Source of the DNA: Deltaproteobacteria bacterium
GTDB taxonomy: Bacteria; Myxococcota; Myxococcia; Myxococcales; SZAS-1
Assembly: GCA_018266075.1 (NCBI GenBank)
Contig: JAFEBB010000004.1
Span: forward strand, 124,001-188,000
Length of the DNA: 64,000 nucleotides
Direction: 5' to 3'
Under the pieces are notes generated by a model. That model was not told where the DNA came from. It worked only from the letters and a program-made list of their open reading frames with translations, and searched no databases. The first letter of the stretch is position 1, and each line of letters starts with the position of its first letter. A program made the position numbers and the translations under genes. This document shows positions 29,176 through 53,342 of this stretch, in pieces.

Positions 29176-29733
29176 ATGCATCTCAACCGCAAGTCCGTTC
29201 TACTTGGTGCTGCGGGCCTGGCGCTGGTGACGCTCGGTGTCCTCGCTCTGGCCACGCGCGGCCCGATGGAGCCGCCCGCGCAAGATCTGTCGAACGACCT
29301 GGCTGCGGCCTACAACGCCGTCGACTCCGGCGCGGTGAAGCTCTCCACGCCCGCCAAGGTGAGCATGACCGTGCTCGCCGCCGACGGCGTGCCGCAGCGC
29401 AACGCGCCCAGCTTCCAGCCGCGGGTGATCTCGGTGGTGGGCGCGGCGCCGGTGGAGGCGCTGCACCGGCGCGCGGTGCTGGTGCGCTACCGGGGCGACG
29501 TGGAGGGCACGTTCGCGGTGATGTCGCTTCCTGGCAAGCCGGACGACTTCGCGCTCGACGCCGGGACGATCGAGTTCCAGAACCACCGCTTCACCACGTT
29601 CTTGCGGCCTGGGCCGGGCGGCGCGCCGCTGCACGGCGTGGGTCAGGTGATGGGTGGACGGCTGGTTTTTCTCGTGGGTCCGCAGCCGTTCGACAAGCTG
29701 GCAGAGCTGGCGGTGATGATTCCGCCAGTCTAG
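29176..29733 (+). CDS. Uncharacterised membrane-anchored protein
   Basis: 185 residues: a single N-terminal transmembrane or uncleaved signal segment (SVLLGAAGLALVTLGVLALA), then about 155 residues outside the membrane. Segments such as VRYRGDVEGTFAVMSLPG and TFLRPGPGGAPLHGVGQVMGGRLVFLV suggest a beta-rich domain. No family is recognised. It diverges from the metal-uptake operon across 47 bp, so the two may share a control region. Its TAG stop begins the heptad repeat element at 29731. Confidence 0.5.
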   Translation: MHLNRKSVLLGAAGLALVTLGVLALATRGPMEPPAQDLSNDLAAAYNAVDSGAVKLSTPAKVSMTVLAADGVPQRNAPSFQPRVISVVGAAPVEALHRRAVLVRYRGDVEGTFAVMSLPGKPDDFALDAGTIEFQNHRFTTFLRPGPGGAPLHGVGQVMGGRLVFLVGPQPFDKLAELAVMIPPV

Positions 29734-29798
29734 TTCCGGGTCGCTGGTTCCTGGCAGGCGCTCAACCAGGAACCAGGAGCTAGGAACCAGGAACTGAA
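29731..29798. repeat. Heptad inverted-repeat element, GGTTCCT subtype, copy 1
   Basis: Seven-base units run TAGTTCC, GGGTCGC, TGGTTCC, TGGCAGG on the left and AACCAGG, AACCAGG, AGCTAGG, AACCAGG, AACTGAA on the right. The core is a perfect 11-bp inverted repeat, CTGGTTCCTGG (29744-29754) with CCAGGAACCAG (29766-29776), and an 11-base loop. It lies between convergent genes. The left end is the stop codon of the plus-strand gene. The helicase gene's stop (TAG, 29780-29782 on the minus strand) lies within the right units, so the repeat also encodes that protein's last residues. Confidence 0.85.
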
Positions 29799-31798
29799 TC
29801 TCGGATCTTTTTCCAAGCCGGTCCGAGCTTGGCGAAATCTCCGACGCGCGTGGCCGGCGGCAGCGACTCGAGGAACTTCCGGCCGTAGCCCTTGGTGCGA
29901 ACGCGCTTGTCGAGCACGGCCACGATGCCGCGATCGCGCTGGGTTCGGATCAGCCGGCCAAAACCTTGCCGCAGCGAGAGCGCCGCTTCGGGAACCTGGT
30001 AGGCGTCGAACGGCTCCTGACCTTGCTCTTTCAGCCACTGGATCCGCGCGGCCACCACCGGATCCTTCGGGTTCGCGAACGGCAGCCGGTCGATGATCAC
30101 CAGGGACAGCGCGTCGCCAGGAACGTCGACGCCTTCCCAGAAGCTCTGCGACGCAAAGAGCACGCTCGGCTCCTCGCGGAAGCGCTCGAGCAGCTTCTGC
30201 TTGGGCAGCTCGCCCTGGAGCAGCATCTGCCAGGGCAGCCGGCCCTCGAGCAGCTTGTAGAGCTCGCCCATCTGCCGCAGCGAGGTGCAGAGCACGAACG
30301 CGCGGCCGTCGGTCACGTGGGTGAGGGCCTCGACCTCTGCCGCCGCGGCCGCCGTGAAGCGCGGGTCGTTCGGCTCGGGCAGGTGCACCGGCACGTAGAG
30401 GATCGACTGGCTGCCGTAGTCGAACGGCGAAGGCAGGCTCTTCGACTCCAGCTCCACACGCGGCTGGCCCTTGGAATCGACGAGCCCGAGGCGCTTCTTC
30501 AGGAACTCGAACGAGCCGCCCGTGGAGAGCGTGGCCGAGGTGAACACCGCCGTATCCAGCGCGGGGTAGACGCGCCGCGCGAGCTCCTCGGCCACGTCCA
30601 CCGGCGCTGCGCGCAGCGCGACGGAGCGCATCCGCTGCTCGGCAAAGTAGACGTGGCTCGGCTTCTCCTCCGCGAGCACGAAGCGCAGCTGCTCCGCGAG
30701 CTCACCCGCGCGCCGCCCCAGCGACGCCACCTCGGCCAGCTCGTCACCCGCCAGCGACTCGCGCACGCTCTCCAGCACGCGAAACGTATCGCTCGACTGC
30801 GCCATCGCCGCTTCGCGCAGCGCGGGGGTGAGCCGCACGCTCTCGCTCTGCGGCAGCTGCGCCGACACCGCCCCAAACAGCGCCTGCGACGCGGTCCGCA
30901 AAGCGGCCCACGCCGGCGCCGCCTCGGGATACTTCTCGTGGCCGGGCAGCAGCATGCGCTCGCCGTCGCGCGCGAGCTCCTCCAGCTTGAAGCTCGAGAT
31001 GTGGGTGCCGAAGTGCTCGCTGGCGATCTCTTCGAGCGCGTGGGCCTCGTCGAAGATCACCACGTCGTAGCGCGGGATCACCTCGCCCGCGCCGCGCATG
31101 GGCCGCCGCTTCTCGTCCGACGGATCCGCGGCGTCGTCGTCCTCGATCACTTCCTTCGACTTCCCGGTGCGCACCGCCACGTCGGCGAAGAAGAGCGCGT
31201 GGTTCACCACGACCAGATCCGCCGCGGCGGCCTCGGCGCGCATCTTGGTCACGAAGCACGCCTCGTAGTCCGGACAGCGCTGGCCGGTGCACGTATCCGC
31301 CGTCGCGCTGAGCTCGCGCCAGGCCGCGAAGCCCTCGGGCAGATCGAGCTCGGACTTGTCGCCGGTCTCGGTGGCCTTGGCCCAGGCGCGCAGCCGCGGG
31401 TAGAGGCGCGCGTCGTGCTTGGTCTGGAAGAGCGGCTCCTGCTCGAAGCGCCCGAAGCGCGCCAGGCACAGGTAGTTCGAGCGGCCCTTCATGTACGCGG
31501 CGCGGAACGAGAGCCCCGCGCGCTCGGCGAGCAGCGGCAGGTCCTTGAAGAAGATCTGATCTTGAAGCGTCTTGGTCGCCGTGGAGACGACCACCTTCCG
31601 ACCCGAGCGCAGCGCGGGCACCAGGTACGCGAGCGTCTTGCCGGTGCCCGTTCCCGCTTCCACGAGCAGGTAGCGCCGCTCGGCGAGCGCGCGGGTGACG
31701 GCCTCCGCCATCGCCAGCTGCCCCGGTCGCAGCTCGTAGCCGGGCAGCCCGCGGGCGAGCGCGCCGTCCGGGCCGAGGATGTCGTCGAGCTCGCTCAT
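29780..31798 (-). CDS. dinG: DinG/XPD-family ATP-dependent DNA helicase
   Basis: 672 residues from ATG 31798, overlapping the previous gene's stop. Superfamily 2 motifs: ELRPGQLAMAEAV (Q-like), VEAGTGTGKTLAYLVPA (Walker A), DEAH in VVIFDEAHALEE, TSATLSTGG, and the lobe-2 segment LSLRQGFGRLIRTQRDRGIVAVLDKR. Four cysteines (SNYLC, TADTC, QRC, YEAC) lie between motifs Ia and II, where XPD/DinG proteins bind a 4Fe-4S cluster. The C-terminal residues SVPGS come from the adjacent heptad repeat. A repair or R-loop-resolving role follows from family knowledge; YoaA-type proteins are the alternative name. Confidence 0.9.
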   Translation of the reverse strand: MSELDDILGPDGALARGLPGYELRPGQLAMAEAVTRALAERRYLLVEAGTGTGKTLAYLVPALRSGRKVVVSTATKTLQDQIFFKDLPLLAERAGLSFRAAYMKGRSNYLCLARFGRFEQEPLFQTKHDARLYPRLRAWAKATETGDKSELDLPEGFAAWRELSATADTCTGQRCPDYEACFVTKMRAEAAAADLVVVNHALFFADVAVRTGKSKEVIEDDDAADPSDEKRRPMRGAGEVIPRYDVVIFDEAHALEEIASEHFGTHISSFKLEELARDGERMLLPGHEKYPEAAPAWAALRTASQALFGAVSAQLPQSESVRLTPALREAAMAQSSDTFRVLESVRESLAGDELAEVASLGRRAGELAEQLRFVLAEEKPSHVYFAEQRMRSVALRAAPVDVAEELARRVYPALDTAVFTSATLSTGGSFEFLKKRLGLVDSKGQPRVELESKSLPSPFDYGSQSILYVPVHLPEPNDPRFTAAAAAEVEALTHVTDGRAFVLCTSLRQMGELYKLLEGRLPWQMLLQGELPKQKLLERFREEPSVLFASQSFWEGVDVPGDALSLVIIDRLPFANPKDPVVAARIQWLKEQGQEPFDAYQVPEAALSLRQGFGRLIRTQRDRGIVAVLDKRVRTKGYGRKFLESLPPATRVGDFAKLGPAWKKIRDSVPGS

Positions 31799-34187: not shown

Positions 34188-34676
34188 GTGAGCGTGAGCC
34201 AGGTTTTTGCCGCACAGACCGAGCCGCTCTGGGTGCGCGCCGCGCAGGCGCTCGAGCCGCGCTCGACGCCCATGGGCCTGACCGAGTTCTGGCGCGAGGT
34301 CGTGGAGCTGGGCTGGGGCAGCCGCCACCAGGACGCCGAGGCCTGCGGCGTGTCGCTGGCCGCGCGCCTGGGCCCGACGGAGCTCGTGGCCTTCAAGCTC
34401 CGCCTCCGCCAGCTCGACGCCCAGCTCGCCCGCGCCATCGAGCTCTGGGAGATGCAGAACGAGGAGAGCCTGGGCCTGCCGCGTGAGCTGGCCGGCGCGC
34501 TGCGCGAGCACGTGATTGGCCAGGGCGAGATTCCCTACGGCGCCGCGGTGCAGGGCCCGTGGCGCGTGAAGCACCGCGCGGATCGCGACGACTACCTCGA
34601 GGGCTTTGGCCGCGTGGTCGACGAGGCGCTCAAGCACGTGCCGCAGGAGAAGCTGCTGGCTGTGATTGGTTCCTAG
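34188..34676 (+). CDS. Uncharacterised helical protein, DUF4240-like in places
   Basis: About 162 residues if the GTG at 34188 is used; the frame opens at 34140 inside the terminator tail, so the earliest TTG is unlikely, and an ATG at 34272 is another option. GLTEFWREVVELG, LRLRQLDAQLARAIELWEMQ and HVIGQGEIPYGAAVQGPW recall DUF4240-type proteins (xFWxxI start, LWxAA helix, xQGxxxYxxA). The match is loose. The stop codon TAG (34674-34676) lies inside the heptad repeat. Confidence 0.5.
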   Translation: MSVSQVFAAQTEPLWVRAAQALEPRSTPMGLTEFWREVVELGWGSRHQDAEACGVSLAARLGPTELVAFKLRLRQLDAQLARAIELWEMQNEESLGLPRELAGALREHVIGQGEIPYGAAVQGPWRVKHRADRDDYLEGFGRVVDEALKHVPQEKLLAVIGS

Positions 34677-34743
34677 TTCCTGGTTCCTGGTTGATGGTCA
34701 CTCGCCAACCAGGAACCAGCGACCAGCAACCAGGAACTGAATC
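34668..34743. repeat. Heptad inverted-repeat element, GGTTCCT subtype, copy 2
   Basis: Left units read GGTTCCT, AGTTCCT, GGTTCCT, GGTTGAT. Right units read AACCAGG, AACCAGC, GACCAGC, AACCAGG, AACTGAA. The core is a perfect 14-bp inverted repeat, CTGGTTCCTGGTTG (34680-34693) with CAACCAGGAACCAG (34706-34719), and a 12-base loop. It separates convergent genes, contains the plus-strand gene's TAG, and ends against the minus-strand gene's TGA. Its right border AACCAGGAACTGAATC is identical to copy 1. Confidence 0.88.
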
Positions 34744-35833
34744 AGCGCAACTCGATGCCGAGGCCAGGCTCGGATCCGAGCGTGTAGCGCGGTCCGGACT
34801 CGCGATAGCCGCCGCGGAACGGATCCGTGCGCAGCAGCCAGGCGGTATCGAGATCCGGGAACTCGACGCCACCCAGCGCCGCGGCGAGGTGCGTGGCCGC
34901 GGTCATGCCCAGGCGGGTCTCCACCATGCCGCCGACCATGATCGACATGCCCGCCGCCCGCGCCGCCCGACCGATGGCCAGCGCCGGTAGCAGCCCGCCG
35001 CTCTTGGCGATCTTGAGGTTCACGCCCGAGGCCGCGCGCGCGTCGCGGACGCGACCGAGCTCCGCCAGGTGCTTCACCGACTCATCGGCCACCACCGGAG
35101 CGCGGCTCGTCGAAGCGACCTGGGCCATTCCCGCGAGATCGTCCTCGGCACAGGGCTGCTCGTAGCACTCGACCGGTCCGAGTGCTTCCGCGGCGCGCAA
35201 CACCCGGACGGCCTCGTCGGCGGTGAAACCGCCATTGGCGTCGAGCCGAAACCGCGCGCCCGGCACGGCCCGGTGGACCGCAGCGAGGGCGTCGAGATCG
35301 CCCTGGAGATCTTTTCCGACCTTCACCTTGAAGCTCACGAAGCCCTTGGCGCTCCACTGCGACGCCAGCTCGGCCATGCGCGCGGGCGGCAGGATGGGCA
35401 AAGTGATGTCGGTGACCAGCTCCGGCGCGCGGCCTGGCTCCGGCCCGCCGAGCAGCGTGTAGAGGGGGACGCCCTTCGCGCGCGCGAGCGCATCGAGCAG
35501 CGCCAGCTCCACGCCCGCGCGAGAGACCAGGTGACCGTGGAACGCGGCGTCGAGCGGCGCCTGCAGCGAAGCGAGGTCGTCCGGATCCAACTTGATCCCG
35601 ATCAACCTCGGCGCGGCGGCGGCGACGGCGCGGAGCACGTCGGGCTGATCTTCGCGCGTGACCGGCGGCAGGCACGCCGCCTCGCCCAGCCCGGTGAAGC
35701 GGGCGCTGCCATCTTCGAGGACCGCGGTCACCAGCGCGCAGCGGGTGGCATCCACGCGCCCCGAGGCGATGACGAACGGATCGACGAGCGGAACAGAGAG
35801 CTCGACGACGGTGAGCGAAGCCAGCTTGAGCAT
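34742..35833 (-). CDS. Dipeptide epimerase / muconate-lactonizing-type enolase superfamily enzyme
   Basis: 363 residues with the full enolase-superfamily layout: a capping domain, then a barrel. Catalytic features are the KxK motif in SFKVKVG, metal ligands in FRLDANGGF (Asp), VECYEQPC (Glu) and VADES (Asp), and the opposite-face Lys in NLKIAKSGGL. GGMVETRLGMTAATHLA near the end is typical of L-Ala-D/L-Glu epimerases, which act in murein-peptide recycling. o-Succinylbenzoate synthase and muconate cycloisomerase are alternatives. The upstream cNMP-binding gene ends four bases before this start, so the two form an operon. Confidence 0.85.
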   Translation of the reverse strand: MLKLASLTVVELSVPLVDPFVIASGRVDATRCALVTAVLEDGSARFTGLGEAACLPPVTREDQPDVLRAVAAAAPRLIGIKLDPDDLASLQAPLDAAFHGHLVSRAGVELALLDALARAKGVPLYTLLGGPEPGRAPELVTDITLPILPPARMAELASQWSAKGFVSFKVKVGKDLQGDLDALAAVHRAVPGARFRLDANGGFTADEAVRVLRAAEALGPVECYEQPCAEDDLAGMAQVASTSRAPVVADESVKHLAELGRVRDARAASGVNLKIAKSGGLLPALAIGRAARAAGMSIMVGGMVETRLGMTAATHLAAALGGVEFPDLDTAWLLRTDPFRGGYRESGPRYTLGSEPGLGIELR

Positions 35834-36950: not shown

Positions 36951-36981
36951 CAAACCAGCCACCAGCCACCAGCCACCGACC
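36951..36981. repeat. Heptad repeat, GGTGGCT subtype, single arm
   Basis: Three tandem CCAGCCA units (36956-36976) followed by CCG. This matches one arm of the larger element at 53201-53342; no opposite arm is present nearby. It lies between divergent genes, directly after the TAAC-N6-GTTA palindrome. Confidence 0.75.
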
Positions 36982-44818: not shown

Positions 44819-44906
44819 CAGTTGCTGGTTCCTGGTTCTTTTTCCTGGCGGATTCGCAAGATCTTGCTTGGACAGCCAACCAGGAACCCAGGAACTAGGA
44901 ACTTAA
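44819..44906. repeat. Heptad inverted-repeat element, GGTTCCT subtype, copy 3
   Basis: Left units AGTTGCT, GGTTCCT, GGTTCTT; right units AACCAGG, AACCCAGG, AACTAGG, AACT. The paired core is GGTTCCTGGTT (44827-44837) with AACCAGGAACC (44878-44888), separated by 40 bases. It lies between two minus-strand genes. The GNAT gene's stop TAG (44895-44897, minus strand) is within the right arm. Confidence 0.8.
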
Positions 44907-45536
44907 AAGTTTCAGTTCTTTTGCAGCAAATCGGATCAACTGCGATCCGGGCCCATCCGGCAGGTGCTCGAGCTTGCCATCTTGCGGCAACGGCGGCAGC
45001 GCGAGGTCGATGTGCACCACGCCGGCGTCCGCGTGGGCGTTGACGGTGGCGCCCAGATGCCGCAGCAGGCCAAGCACCGGCGCGTTGCTGGCGAGGATCT
45101 CCGCCTCGAAGCGCTCCACGCCGCGCTCGCGCGCCGCCAGAGTGATGGCAGCCAGCAGGAGCCGGCCAAGACCGCGACCCTGGTAGTCATCGAGCACCGT
45201 CACCGCGGCCTCGGCGACATTCCCACCTGGCGCCTGGCGAACGAACCGCGCCAGCCCCCAGCCCTCCTGCTCGTCCTCGCTGTCGGTGGGCTTGCCCGCG
45301 ACAATGGCCAGGTGGTCCTCGTTGTCCACCGCGGAGAGGTAGTTGAGGGCGTTGTCGGAGAGCGTGGTGGTGGCGGAGAGGAAGCGGTAGTACCGCGACT
45401 CGGGCGAGAGCTTGGCGATGGCGTCGGCCAACCGCCCCTTGTCGCTGGGGCGAAGCAAGCGAACACGCACCAGGGTGCCGTCCGGGAGCGCAATGTCGCG
45501 CTGGAAGTCTCCATCGATGAGGCGCCGCACGGACAT
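44895..45536 (-). CDS. GNAT-family acetyltransferase
   Basis: 213 residues. GNAT motifs: the N-terminal VRVRLLRPSDKGRLADAIAKLSPESRYYRF region, the central EAAVTVLDDYQGRGLGRLLLAAI (acetyl-CoA loop QGRGLG) and FEAEILASNAPVLGLLRHLGA. The start resembles domains seen in protein-lysine acetyltransferases of the Pat type (SPESRYYRF), but no second domain is present. Its last residues, KLLSS, come from the heptad repeat. Divergent from the metallophosphoesterase gene across 37 bp. Confidence 0.88.
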   Translation of the reverse strand: MSVRRLIDGDFQRDIALPDGTLVRVRLLRPSDKGRLADAIAKLSPESRYYRFLSATTTLSDNALNYLSAVDNEDHLAIVAGKPTDSEDEQEGWGLARFVRQAPGGNVAEAAVTVLDDYQGRGLGRLLLAAITLAARERGVERFEAEILASNAPVLGLLRHLGATVNAHADAGVVHIDLALPPLPQDGKLEHLPDGPGSQLIRFAAKELKLLSS

Positions 45537-45573: not shown

Positions 45574-46566
45574 ATGACCCTTCCACTCTATGCGCTGGTC
45601 ACCGCTGGAGCACTCGCCGCAGCACCCGCAACCTGGGACGGCTTCCAAGGCGAGCACAGCTTGAGCTGTCTCACCGCCGACGCGCTCGAGCCGCCCGAGA
45701 CCATCCAGCATGCGGGCTTCACCTACGTGTTCCACGGGACGAGCGTGCAAGTTCGGCGCGCCGCCAAGCGCGCGCACGCCGACGTCCGCCTGGGCGTCAT
45801 CTCCGGCATCAAGGAGCTCGACGACGCCACCAAGGCGCAGCTCTCCGGCTGGCTCGCGAAGTTCAAGAGCGCCGACGTGGACGCGATCCTCGTGGGCGGC
45901 GACAACGCCGAGGACGAGAGCCGCCTCGACGACGTCTTCCAGTTCCTCGCGGCGAGCGAGTTGCCGACGTACGTGATCATCGGCAACTGGGAAGGTCGCG
46001 CGTCGTTCAACCGCGCGCTGCGAGCGGCCGCGAAGGATCACCCGAACCTCATCAACGGTGACTTCGCGCGGCGCTTCGACGGCGAGGGCTTCGACGTGGT
46101 CACCCTGCCCGGCTACTTCGACAAGACCTACGTACGCTCCAGCGGCGGCTGCATCTACTCGGCCGACGATGCCAGGAGCATCGTCAGCCTGGCCAAGCAG
46201 GCCGACGATCCGGTGGTCCTGCTCATGCACGGTCCGCCGCGCATGAAGGGAAAGGACGCCATCGACTTCGTGCCCGACACGGGAAACGTGGGCGACGAGA
46301 ACGTGGCCGCGGCGATCGCCGACGCGAAGATCGCCTTCGGCATCCATGGGCACATCCTCGAGGCCGGGCAGCGCGCCACGGACGCGAGCGGCAAGCCCGT
46401 GGCACAAAACAAATTGGTTAAGTCGCTCTTCGTGAACCCCGGGCCGGCGAACGCGCTTCCGTGGAAGCTCAACGATGGCAAGACCAGCTATGGCGCGGCC
46501 GCGCTGGTCACGCTCCAGGACGGCAAGGCGAAGTGGGAGCTCTGGGCGGCGCCCAAGCCGAAGTAG
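45574..46566 (+). CDS. Exported metallophosphoesterase-like protein
   Basis: 330 residues from ATG 45574, with a signal peptide (MTLPLYALVTAGALAAAPA). Calcineurin-type motifs appear in relaxed form: DAILVGGDNAEDES (GGDN), VIIGNWEGR where GNHE is usual, LLMHGPPR and FGIHGHILEAG (GHxH region). The N-terminal DxH motif is replaced by VRLGVISGIKEL, so the metal site is incomplete and activity is doubtful. Rare codons TTG GTT AAG occur at 46414-46422 within a sequence shared with the gene at 10511. Substrate unknown. Confidence 0.7.
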   Translation: MTLPLYALVTAGALAAAPATWDGFQGEHSLSCLTADALEPPETIQHAGFTYVFHGTSVQVRRAAKRAHADVRLGVISGIKELDDATKAQLSGWLAKFKSADVDAILVGGDNAEDESRLDDVFQFLAASELPTYVIIGNWEGRASFNRALRAAAKDHPNLINGDFARRFDGEGFDVVTLPGYFDKTYVRSSGGCIYSADDARSIVSLAKQADDPVVLLMHGPPRMKGKDAIDFVPDTGNVGDENVAAAIADAKIAFGIHGHILEAGQRATDASGKPVAQNKLVKSLFVNPGPANALPWKLNDGKTSYGAAALVTLQDGKAKWELWAAPKPK

Positions 46567-46569
46567 TCA

Positions 46570-46601
46570 CGCCAGGAACGAGGAACCAGGAACTGGATCT
46601 G
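46570..46601. repeat. Heptad repeat, GGTTCCT subtype, single arm
   Basis: Units GCCAGG, AACGAGG, AACCAGG, AACTGGATC follow the stop of the metallophosphoesterase gene directly. Only the right-hand arm type is present. It keeps the AACCAGGAACTG border seen in copies 1 and 2. Confidence 0.7.
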
Positions 46602-46617: not shown

Positions 46618-48687
46618 ATGCGCGCCGCCACCGAGCCGACGTTGGATCGCCTGGTGGAGCTGGTGGCGCGCGGCGCGGATCCAGAAGGCGCGCTCGCGCG
46701 GATCCAGGCGGGCATGCTCGCGCGCGCGGCCGGCGCGACGGATCTGGCTCACGCGCGCGGCCTGCTCGCGAAGACCTCGCCCGAAGCCGCCGCGCTGCTC
46801 GCGCCGCTGGCCACGCTGGACGTGGCGGTGCTCCCGCCGCTCGGCGACACCGACGCGCTCTCCCGCTTCTACGAGCTGCTCCAGGCGCGCCTCCAGCCCG
46901 CACAGCGGCGCGCGCTCGGCCAGTACTTCACCCCGCGGCCCCTGGTGCGCGCGATGTGGTCGCTCGCGCTCGACGCGCTCCGCGCCACCGGCTTCGACAC
47001 CCGTCGCACCCGCGTGGTGGATCCGGCTGCCGGATCTGGCGCGTTCTTGGTCGAGGGGCTCACGCGCGGGCTCACGGGCGCGCAGTTGCTCGGCGTGGAG
47101 ATCCTCGGATCCGCGGCGCGCACGGCCACGGTGAACGCGTGCCTGGCCGCGCAGGGCAAGGGCTCGCCGCGCGTGCTCGAGGCCGACGCGTACGCCCCGT
47201 CCACGTTCGACGCGCTCCTCGCGCACGCGCGCGGCGCCGAGTCGCTGCTGGTCATTGGCAACCCGCCGTACAACGGCACCTCGCCGCTGTTGAAGGATCC
47301 GGCGCGGCTGCAGTCGGCGCGCGAGCGGCTGCTTCCGTTCGCGCGCTACCACGCGCCGCACTCCGGGTTCCGCGACGACTTCGCCTATTTCTTCGGGCTC
47401 GCGCACGCGCTCTTCGCCGAGAGCGACAAGCCCGGCGCCATCGTGCTCATCACGCCCAGCTCGCTGCTCGACGCGCGCGACTACCTCGGGCTGCGGCGCT
47501 TTCTGCTCGAGCGCTACGCGGTGCAGATCGTCGACGTGGGGCCAGCCGCGTTTCCCGACGCGCGCGTGGACACCTGCATCAGCGTGCTCACCCGCGGCGG
47601 CCATGGCGCGCGCTACTTCTCGCTGACCGAGAATCGCGACGATCAGGTGGAGTCGATCGCCGAGCAGCCCTCGCTGGCGGCGCTGGGGCCCGCGATTCTG
47701 CCCGCACATCCCGACTACGCGCTGCGGCCGGTGCCGGAGGTGGACGCGCTCACGAGCGACGTCGATGCGATCACGGACGTGCTCCAGCGCTGGTTCACGC
47801 CGCACAAGACCGGCTTCGACGAGCTCCTGGTCGACGCGGATCCGGAGGCGATCTGGGGGCGGCTCGTGGCGCTGCGCTCCAGGCGGTTCTCGCCGCGCGC
47901 GTTCGCGGAGCGCTTCGGCGAGGACTTCGCGCCGGCGCGGGTGCAGAGGAAGCTCGAGGCCGCGCACGCGTGGGCCGTCGCGCAGCCGGAGTTTCCCGAG
48001 CGGGGTCGACTTGGGCCGTACCTGCGCTACAACCCGCGGCAAGCCCGCTTCGCCGCGCCTCGCGAGCAGTGGCAGCACGTGTACTTCGAACCGCGCATCG
48101 CCACGCTCTTCAACCACGCGTTCAAGGGAACCATCGGGCGGTACAAGCCGCACGAGAAGAAGCCGCAGCTCATCTTCAACACCTTCGAGTCGCCGCTGTA
48201 CGCGATGGTCGTGGAGAAGCGCGGCGTGCTGCACCTCTACCAGCACGCGCGCTTCGCCCCGCTGCACGTGCCCGAGGGCATCTGGCGGTCGCGAGATGAC
48301 AAGGTCGACCGCCCCGATGCAGGCAAGCCGATCTTGAACCTCACTTCAACCTGGCAGGAGCGCGCGTCTCTCTTGCGCGAGCCGTCGGACGTGTTTCACC
48401 TGCTCGCGGGCGTCACCCAGAGCGCGCTCATGCAGAAGCTCTTCGCGCCGCACTTCGGCAAGCGGCGGGCGCTGCCGATGAAGCGGCTGACTGAGGAGCT
48501 GGCGCCTCTTGGGCAGCGCATCGCGGATCGCGCCCGACTCCTGGCGGCGCTGGAGGCGCGCGGCGGCGATGGCTCGGAGCTGCAAGCCCGGCTCGACGCC
48601 GACGTGCTCCGGCTTTACCTCGGCGCCGATCTGCCGGCTGCGGAGCTGGCCAAGACGCCGCTCCACCGCGCCGTCGAAGGCGCTTGA
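46618..48687 (+). CDS. Solitary N6-adenine-type DNA methyltransferase
   Basis: 689 residues from ATG 46618. After a helical N-terminus comes LGQYFTPRPLVRAM (the xQYFTP motif of type I/ISP-like methylases). Motif I is VVDPAAGSGAFLVE (134-146) and catalytic motif IV GNPPYNG (214-220), giving the NPPY of N6-adenine enzymes. A mid-region (PSSLLDARDYLGLRRFLLERYAV) and a long C-terminal half with a probable target-recognition domain follow. The C-terminus resembles the methylase/TRD part of type ISP or BREX PglX-like enzymes, but no helicase or nuclease domain is fused. No restriction gene is adjacent. Confidence 0.85.
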   Translation: MRAATEPTLDRLVELVARGADPEGALARIQAGMLARAAGATDLAHARGLLAKTSPEAAALLAPLATLDVAVLPPLGDTDALSRFYELLQARLQPAQRRALGQYFTPRPLVRAMWSLALDALRATGFDTRRTRVVDPAAGSGAFLVEGLTRGLTGAQLLGVEILGSAARTATVNACLAAQGKGSPRVLEADAYAPSTFDALLAHARGAESLLVIGNPPYNGTSPLLKDPARLQSARERLLPFARYHAPHSGFRDDFAYFFGLAHALFAESDKPGAIVLITPSSLLDARDYLGLRRFLLERYAVQIVDVGPAAFPDARVDTCISVLTRGGHGARYFSLTENRDDQVESIAEQPSLAALGPAILPAHPDYALRPVPEVDALTSDVDAITDVLQRWFTPHKTGFDELLVDADPEAIWGRLVALRSRRFSPRAFAERFGEDFAPARVQRKLEAAHAWAVAQPEFPERGRLGPYLRYNPRQARFAAPREQWQHVYFEPRIATLFNHAFKGTIGRYKPHEKKPQLIFNTFESPLYAMVVEKRGVLHLYQHARFAPLHVPEGIWRSRDDKVDRPDAGKPILNLTSTWQERASLLREPSDVFHLLAGVTQSALMQKLFAPHFGKRRALPMKRLTEELAPLGQRIADRARLLAALEARGGDGSELQARLDADVLRLYLGADLPAAELAKTPLHRAVEGA

Positions 48688-53200: not shown

Positions 53201-53342
53201 AGTGGCTGGTGGCTGGTGGCTGGTGGCTGGAGCGGCGTTCGGGTTTCAGGGGATGCCCCAACCGGACTTTACAGCGAGTGAAAAGACGAAGGGCTTTTCA
53301 AATTGGAAATCGGCAACCAGCCACGAGCCACCAGCCACCGCT
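53201..53342. repeat. Heptad inverted-repeat element, GGTGGCT subtype
   Basis: The left arm is four tandem TGGCTGG units (53203-53230). The right arm is CCAGCCA, CGAGCCA, CCAGCCA, CC (53317-53339). The 86-base loop holds a smaller hairpin (GAAAAG/CTTTTC near 53279-53302) and is AT-richer than its surroundings. It lies between the DUF4097 gene and the DUF5916 gene (both minus strand) and fills most of a 283-bp gap. The unit length and layout equal those of the GGTTCCT subtype. Confidence 0.82.

Follow-up and report, generated by a model that had tools for sequence, protein, structure and literature searches.

A heptamer repeat dispersed in a myxococcal genome lies against gene 3' ends and supplies some of their stop codons

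In a stretch of 64,000 nucleotides from a genome of the Myxococcales (hereafter the window), several genes end inside, or at the edge of, copies of the same short repeat. How does one repeat come to carry the stop codons of its neighbors? A sequence-only reading of the window had offered two answers, that the element inserts preferentially at stop codons or that it has replaced the original 3' ends of the genes.

Anatomy and distribution of the repeat

The unit is a tandem heptamer, (GAACCAG)n on one strand and CTGGTTC on the other, frequently arranged as an inverted pair that gives a hairpin. In the full form, of about 65 nt, the pair reads AGTTCCTGG(TTCCTGG)n, a short spacer, and CCAGG(AACCAGG)nAACT, with GTTCCTG units in the left arm and CAGGAAC units in the right arm.

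Four copies in the window were studied together with their flanking genes, which were called with a codon model trained on the source genome. Copy 1 (29733..29794) is an inverted pair with a left arm of GTTCCTG units (29733-29754), a 9-nt spacer and a right arm of CAGGAAC units (29764-29794). At its left border, a plus-strand gene (29227..29733) coding for a 168-aa protein without Pfam or NCBIfam match ends with TAG at 29731-29733 (CTAGTTCC). Inside its right arm, the motif TTCCTAG holds the TAG (29780-29782) of a DinG-like helicase gene on the minus strand (29780..31798). The product ends in ...KKIRDSVPGS, the terminal residues (D)SVPGS being encoded at or in the array, and its sole NCBIfam match over the cutoff is YoaA (NF053712; 705.6 bits, cutoff 680). 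Copy 2 (34667..34737), also an inverted pair, has arms at 34667-34692 and 34707-34737. The plus-strand gene for a 162-aa protein (34188..34676) stops inside it, at TAG 34674-34676 (TTCCTAGTTCC), with the tail ...VIGS, and an enolase-superfamily (MR/MLE) gene on the minus strand (34742..35833) stops 4 nt outside it, at TGA 34742-34744. Copy 3 (44821..44903) has a left arm found by scan (44821-44838) and a weaker right arm, assigned by eye, at about 44879-44903. The TAG (44895-44897) of a GNAT acetyltransferase gene on the minus strand (44895..45536) lies inside this copy (AGTTCCTAGTTCC), and the array supplies the final two residues (SS) of the protein end ...KLLSS. Copy 4 (46572..46593, plus strand) is a single-arm array that starts 5 nt after the TAG (46564-46566) of a calcineurin-like phosphoesterase gene (45574..46566, plus strand) and lies 24 nt before the gene at 46618-48687. 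The sequence thus bears out the claims that adjacent genes stop inside the motif in copies 1 to 3 and that the plus-strand gene stops at the left edge of copy 1. The window is, however, enriched in a rarer subclass: of the five arrays in which a deep-internal TAG closes a gene, three lie here (the others are at loci L185 and L188).

The genome comprises 7.84 Mb in 166 contigs. A 15-mer of the unit, with at most one mismatch, gave 130 matches, against 0 for the reversed 15-mer, and in the 64-kb window an 11-mer of the unit matched 13 times against 0.94 expected in shuffles. The stretches retrieved for array analysis cover 124 of the 130 matches and hold 52 array clusters (about 52 sites). Fourteen clusters have two arms, separated by 5 to 59 nt, and the remaining 38 do not. 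In four of the 14, the spacers are 9 nt long and similar in sequence, suggesting dispersal as one unit. The genes flanking the arrays are co-directional in 30 cases, divergent in 11 and convergent in seven; three arrays are intragenic and one is at a contig end. The family is therefore mostly intergenic, with 3/52 arrays within genes. Arrays that lie within predicted genes or at their ends were seen at L197:4141-4170, L176:4702-4731, L198:3947-3980 and L213:4021-4051, and those of L198 and L213 encode a TRNQEPGTRN-like peptide. At L211:1-55, contig C66 starts inside a pure array of AACTAGG units, where the repeat probably broke the assembly.

In 59 other genomes of the same order we found 0 to 3 matches each, so that the element is essentially absent there; the source genome alone represents its family in the set searched. 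Of 146 genomes drawn from the phylum, the source genome included, one other was rich in the repeat, with 36 matches to an 18-mer against 71 in the source genome. A second heptamer family, (ACCAGCC)n, occurs in the same genome (window 36954-36977 and 53202-53230; L177:503-630; L243:10947; L269:19637). Its copies in the window and at L177 lie between divergent genes, and those at L243 and L269 are 5 nt away from a stop.

Placement relative to stop and start codons

We measured the gap between each array border and the gene end that it faces, omitting the three intragenic arrays and the absent side of the contig-end array. The 45 borders facing gene 3' ends had a median gap of +4 nt, and 37 of them lay within 16 nt of the stop, whereas the 52 borders facing starts had a median gap of 65.5 nt, with nine within 16 nt. 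When only long, well-scored genes were considered, the counts within 16 nt were 26/31 for stop-facing and 6/42 for start-facing borders. The right arm of copy 3 was counted in these gaps, in the Monte Carlo simulations and in the open-frame TAG test described below, and left out of the KS test and the stop-overlap TAG test.

Part of this proximity follows from the space available. Convergent spacers that lack an array have a median length of only 6 nt in the stretches analysed, so that convergent copies lie near stops by necessity. In co-directional spacers, the relative position of the arrays was non-uniform (KS p = 4e-6), and 22 of the 30 arrays lay at most 8 nt from the stop, against 9.3 expected by Monte Carlo simulation under uniform placement. 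When the 40 nt before start codons were forbidden to arrays, the expectation rose to 16.1 (p = 0.002). This change indicates that selection against arrays in coding and promoter DNA explains a good part of the placement. With the same exclusion, a test on the median gap lost significance (p = 0.11), and selection alone could thus explain much of what is seen. A leftover stop preference nevertheless remains beyond tolerance. The 11/52 divergent and 3/52 intragenic arrays make the 3' end a preference and no rule; the arrays are intergenic and strongly favour the stop side, but do not form a strict 3'-end element. The proposal that the element inserts preferentially at stops therefore holds as a statement about location (37/45 within 16 nt; 22/30 within 8 nt), but not as one about targeting, since tolerance explains part of the pattern.

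Stop codons in the arrays and protein C-termini

At 15 of the 45 stop-facing borders the stop codon overlaps the array by at least one base; eight stops lie wholly inside and seven more overlap the border. Of the 14 genes with an array-overlapping stop, 11 end in TAG, a codon that closes 113 of the 351 remaining genes (p = 7e-4). Where an open reading frame enters the array, a TAG is found in the array at 6/8 borders, against 7/89 other borders (p = 4e-5); the other two open frames (L201 and L213) traverse the array to a TGA at its far edge, giving tails such as TRNQEPGTRN. The TAG arises by either of two routes. At the border (copy 1 left, L177, L179, L188 left, L191 and L207), the AG of TAG is the AG of the element end AGTTCC. 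Internally (copy 1 right, copy 2, copy 3, L185 and L188 right), the TAG is one transition away from the unit, TGG or CAG to TAG. A helicase and an RNA methyltransferase, which are unrelated proteins, have the -SVPGS tail in common, and TRNQEPGTRN-like tails are found on other proteins.

How much of each protein does the array encode? Among genes with a border TAG, the L179 thiolase places residue 394 of 395 at position 394/395 of its NCBIfam model, the L207 G6PD residue 498 of 500 at position 484/486, and the L177 PleD-type diguanylate cyclase residue 349 of 352 at position 454/457. Proteins with an in-array stop extend slightly past their models: TrmJ at L188 by two residues (234 of 239 at 230/233), the NorR/NtrC-like protein at L185 by three past the end of the NorR model (438 of 442 at 511/512), and the YoaA/DinG protein by nine (657 of 672 at 624/630). 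For array-abutting genes with a full-length model that reaches the end, the C-terminus differs by about -6 to +9 residues. In the testable cases, then, C-termini at or near the profile ends mean that the array swaps the stop and a few codons at most. Large-scale replacement of 3' ends was rejected, as the profile ends are normal, and the second answer of the sequence-only reading is unsupported beyond the last codons.

Comparison with orthologues, as that reading had proposed, was informative for the DinG-like protein. In 15 other genomes its orthologues end within several residues either side of the pre-array core ...AWKKI, and the protein itself ends near their ends. As for the other two cases, the plus-strand 162-aa protein of copy 2 has a homologue in none of 24 relatives, and the C-termini of the GNAT family are variable, so that the normal end point of the copy 3 gene is not fixed by comparison. 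In the L180 rubrerythrin the C-terminal part of a longer model is missing, and TolC at L209 stops short of one of three models; neither difference could be attributed to the array.

We consider it fairly probable that the repeat is a dispersed, non-coding heptamer element that is pressed against stops, survives where it is least harmful, and has the stop restored by a nonsense transition in the repeat or by its border. The heptamer unit would spread by some copying or insertion process, and copies would survive at gene 3' ends since they do least harm there, possibly with some preference for stop codons. A copy landing on a 3' end could destroy or displace the native stop and so open the frame; either the border or a nonsense transition arising within the array would then restore termination and leave tails such as -SVPGS. 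The order of these events is what we infer from the present-day sequences. Any effect on the gene would probably be exerted through the RNA hairpin right after the stop, by analogy with REPs, on mRNA 3' stability or through slowed termination.

Alternatively, an enzyme, or the replication or transcription machinery, could put the element at stops, for instance via the AG common to TAG and AGTTCC. The six border-route loci, at which TAG is followed directly by TTCC, are in line with such targeting, as are the T that precedes AGTTCC at 6 of 18 scorable stop-facing but 0 of 17 start-facing borders, the excess of arrays within 8 nt that survives the 40-nt start exclusion, and the comparably tight abutment in the planctomycetote GH22 (see below). 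Many abutting stops, however, are TGA codons about 4 nt off, without common bases, and the 11 divergent and three intragenic copies do not fit. Nor did we find target-site duplications in the 14 two-armed copies, all of which have terminal inverted repeats (the longest word shared by the flanks averaged 3.4 nt, against 3.2 nt for mismatched pairs), or an enzyme; no transposase was linked to the element. We regard targeted insertion as rather unlikely.

Origin of the arrays and related repeats

It is also conceivable that nothing inserts, and that polymerase slippage expands heptamers from non-coding seeds, gene ends being merely the commonest free space. Slippage on 7-nt units has already been proposed, in the part of the Xanthomonas/Nostoc study drawn on here (PMC4692102), and the genome favours period 7: in an 800-kb sample outside the array loci (L236-L275), the non-genic tandem arrays with periods of 4-12 were four of period 7 and one of period 6. 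Yet inverted pairs with similar spacers resemble copies of one unit, and 130 matches to one pattern with recurring AGTTCC ends are improbable by independent slippage. This explanation appears unlikely to us.

We give about the same low credence to a third possibility, that the hairpin is a selected RNA signal, a transcription terminator or mRNA stabiliser, and that its position after the stop is functional. Eleven of 12 folded sequences exceeded shuffles in stability (z -3.5 to -8.5), and the folded two-armed copies gave hairpins of about -31 to -59 kcal/mol; the single-arm copy 4 folded no better than shuffles (z +1.45). Strong hairpins immediately after stops in the two-armed copies, with convergent and tandem genes both served, would suit such a role. 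However, 38 of 52 clusters are not two-armed and 11 copies are divergent. Moreover, arms matched their own partner no better than the arms of other copies (14 two-armed copies; p = 0.87 and 0.98), and this absence of covariation leaves a selected hairpin unsupported; compensatory hairpin evolution was rejected on the same grounds. Between 28000 and 47000 of the window, eight intrinsic terminator-like sites (a G+C-rich stem and a T run) were found, none of which coincides with an array, and a canonical terminator was rejected. A known RNA family was likewise rejected, the window having no Rfam match.

Across the genome collection, at least 119 stretches hold an exact 22-mer of the unit; 52 of them were read for element structure and 51 for border placement. 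Eleven genomes, picked mostly for having several stretches, were searched whole: 10, from several phyla, had 20 to 273 matches, and Sorangium had nine. Expansions of this heptamer, the one unit searched for across the collection, occur in Planctomycetota, Gemmatimonadaceae, Clostridiales, Bacteroidota, Acidimicrobiia, Acidobacteria and another member of the Myxococcota, and apparently are independent across phyla. In GH22 (Planctomycetota), the best sampled of these cases, an element of about 140-175 nt has the heptamers at its ends, and 17 of 31 stop-facing borders lie within 8 nt, against 1 of 19 start-facing borders; in this count, arms of one element more than 160 nt apart were taken as separate clusters. 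At L039, L042, L045, L154 and other GH22 loci, a conserved palindromic body is bounded by the heptamers as terminal inverted repeats, and the element often lies 0-8 nt after stops. At the Acidimicrobiia loci, 5 of 10 stop-facing borders were at 3 nt or less, in the same direction as in GH22. The stop-side pattern was not seen at the Saprospiraceae, Bacteroidales KA21 and Yes46-11 loci, with few borders per genome. In Acidobacteria BP6.bin107 (L093 and L157), the heptamers alternate with an extra base to form higher-order units of 15-16 nt. That a widely shared, undescribed process writes heptamers at the ends of translated genes, with the stop codon as its landing site, seems to us quite improbable.

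Several known repeats resemble the arrays, as far as the parts of the cited papers used here describe them. Xanthomonas/Nostoc heptamers, GGGAATC and GGGGA(C/T)T, occupy about 180 loci, most of them between genes, in each Xanthomonas genome, with "a strong bias" to just after or overlapping stop codons and with frequent convergent inverted pairs, 70 of them in Xcc (PMC4692102). The arrays share with them the 7-nt tandem units, the many loci, the intergenic location, the inverted pairs and the stop-side bias. The unit is another one, though, and whereas the Xanthomonas/Nostoc heptamers are described as forming G-quadruplexes, the G3-tract pattern (four G-tracts) was found in 0/52 arrays, so that a quadruplex repeat was rejected.

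REP elements with GTAG or CGTC tags are small palindromes no more than about 20 bp from ORF 3' ends, between convergent and tandem gene pairs; their termini often furnish a TAG stop, and some copies lie in frame inside genes (PMC3733652). The arrays are similar in lying near ORF 3' ends, in supplying TAG and in being intragenic at times; they differ from REPs, as characterised in that part of the literature, in their tandem heptamers of variable copy number and in having neither the constant tag nor an associated RAYT. That they are REPs mobilised by a RAYT transposase is highly improbable, despite two Y1 transposase (Y1_Tnp) matches in the genome and the placement of REPs within 20 bp of ORF 3' ends, as no array lies within about 1.5 kb of either match, a GTAG/CGTC-type tag is found at only 2 of 28 palindrome ends, and tandem heptamers are foreign to REP anatomy; this candidate was rejected. 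Since E. coli REPs within 15 nt of a stop are reported to stall ribosomes (available portion of PMC12306157), the arrays may have a REP-like effect on the termination of translation or on mRNA 3' stability.

TAACTGA heptamers of Beggiatoaceae, some cyanobacteria and Bacteroidetes, 13 sets of which overlap the stop of the upstream gene, are likewise direct, intergenic and patchy over phyla, but in the Beggiatoaceae genome, by the portion of that account consulted, most of them immediately precede start codons, and the forward repeats have stops in all three frames (PMC4679880). MITE-like ERIC, NEMIS and RPE are short inverted-repeat elements, mostly intergenic and in some cases fused in frame to genes (PMC2229807), as are the arrays; unlike these elements, in the part of that source covering them, the arrays have no target-site duplication, terminal TA motif or known donor transposon. 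A literature search returned no paper on (GAACCAG)n in bacteria among the matches listed. Both placement at stops and a supplied stop thus are already precedented, by REPs and by the Xanthomonas/Nostoc heptamers, and the element is best regarded as a new sequence family within the dispersed intergenic heptamers, one that resembles REPs in its behaviour at stops.

The arrays offer a countable example of a non-coding repeat becoming the 3' ends of genes, through its placement at stops, TAGs formed by single transitions and tails common to unrelated proteins. Such array-derived C-terminal tails can be encountered in gene annotation and in domain-based studies. The recurrent rise of one heptamer across phyla is a testable puzzle on the origin of bacterial heptamer repeats.
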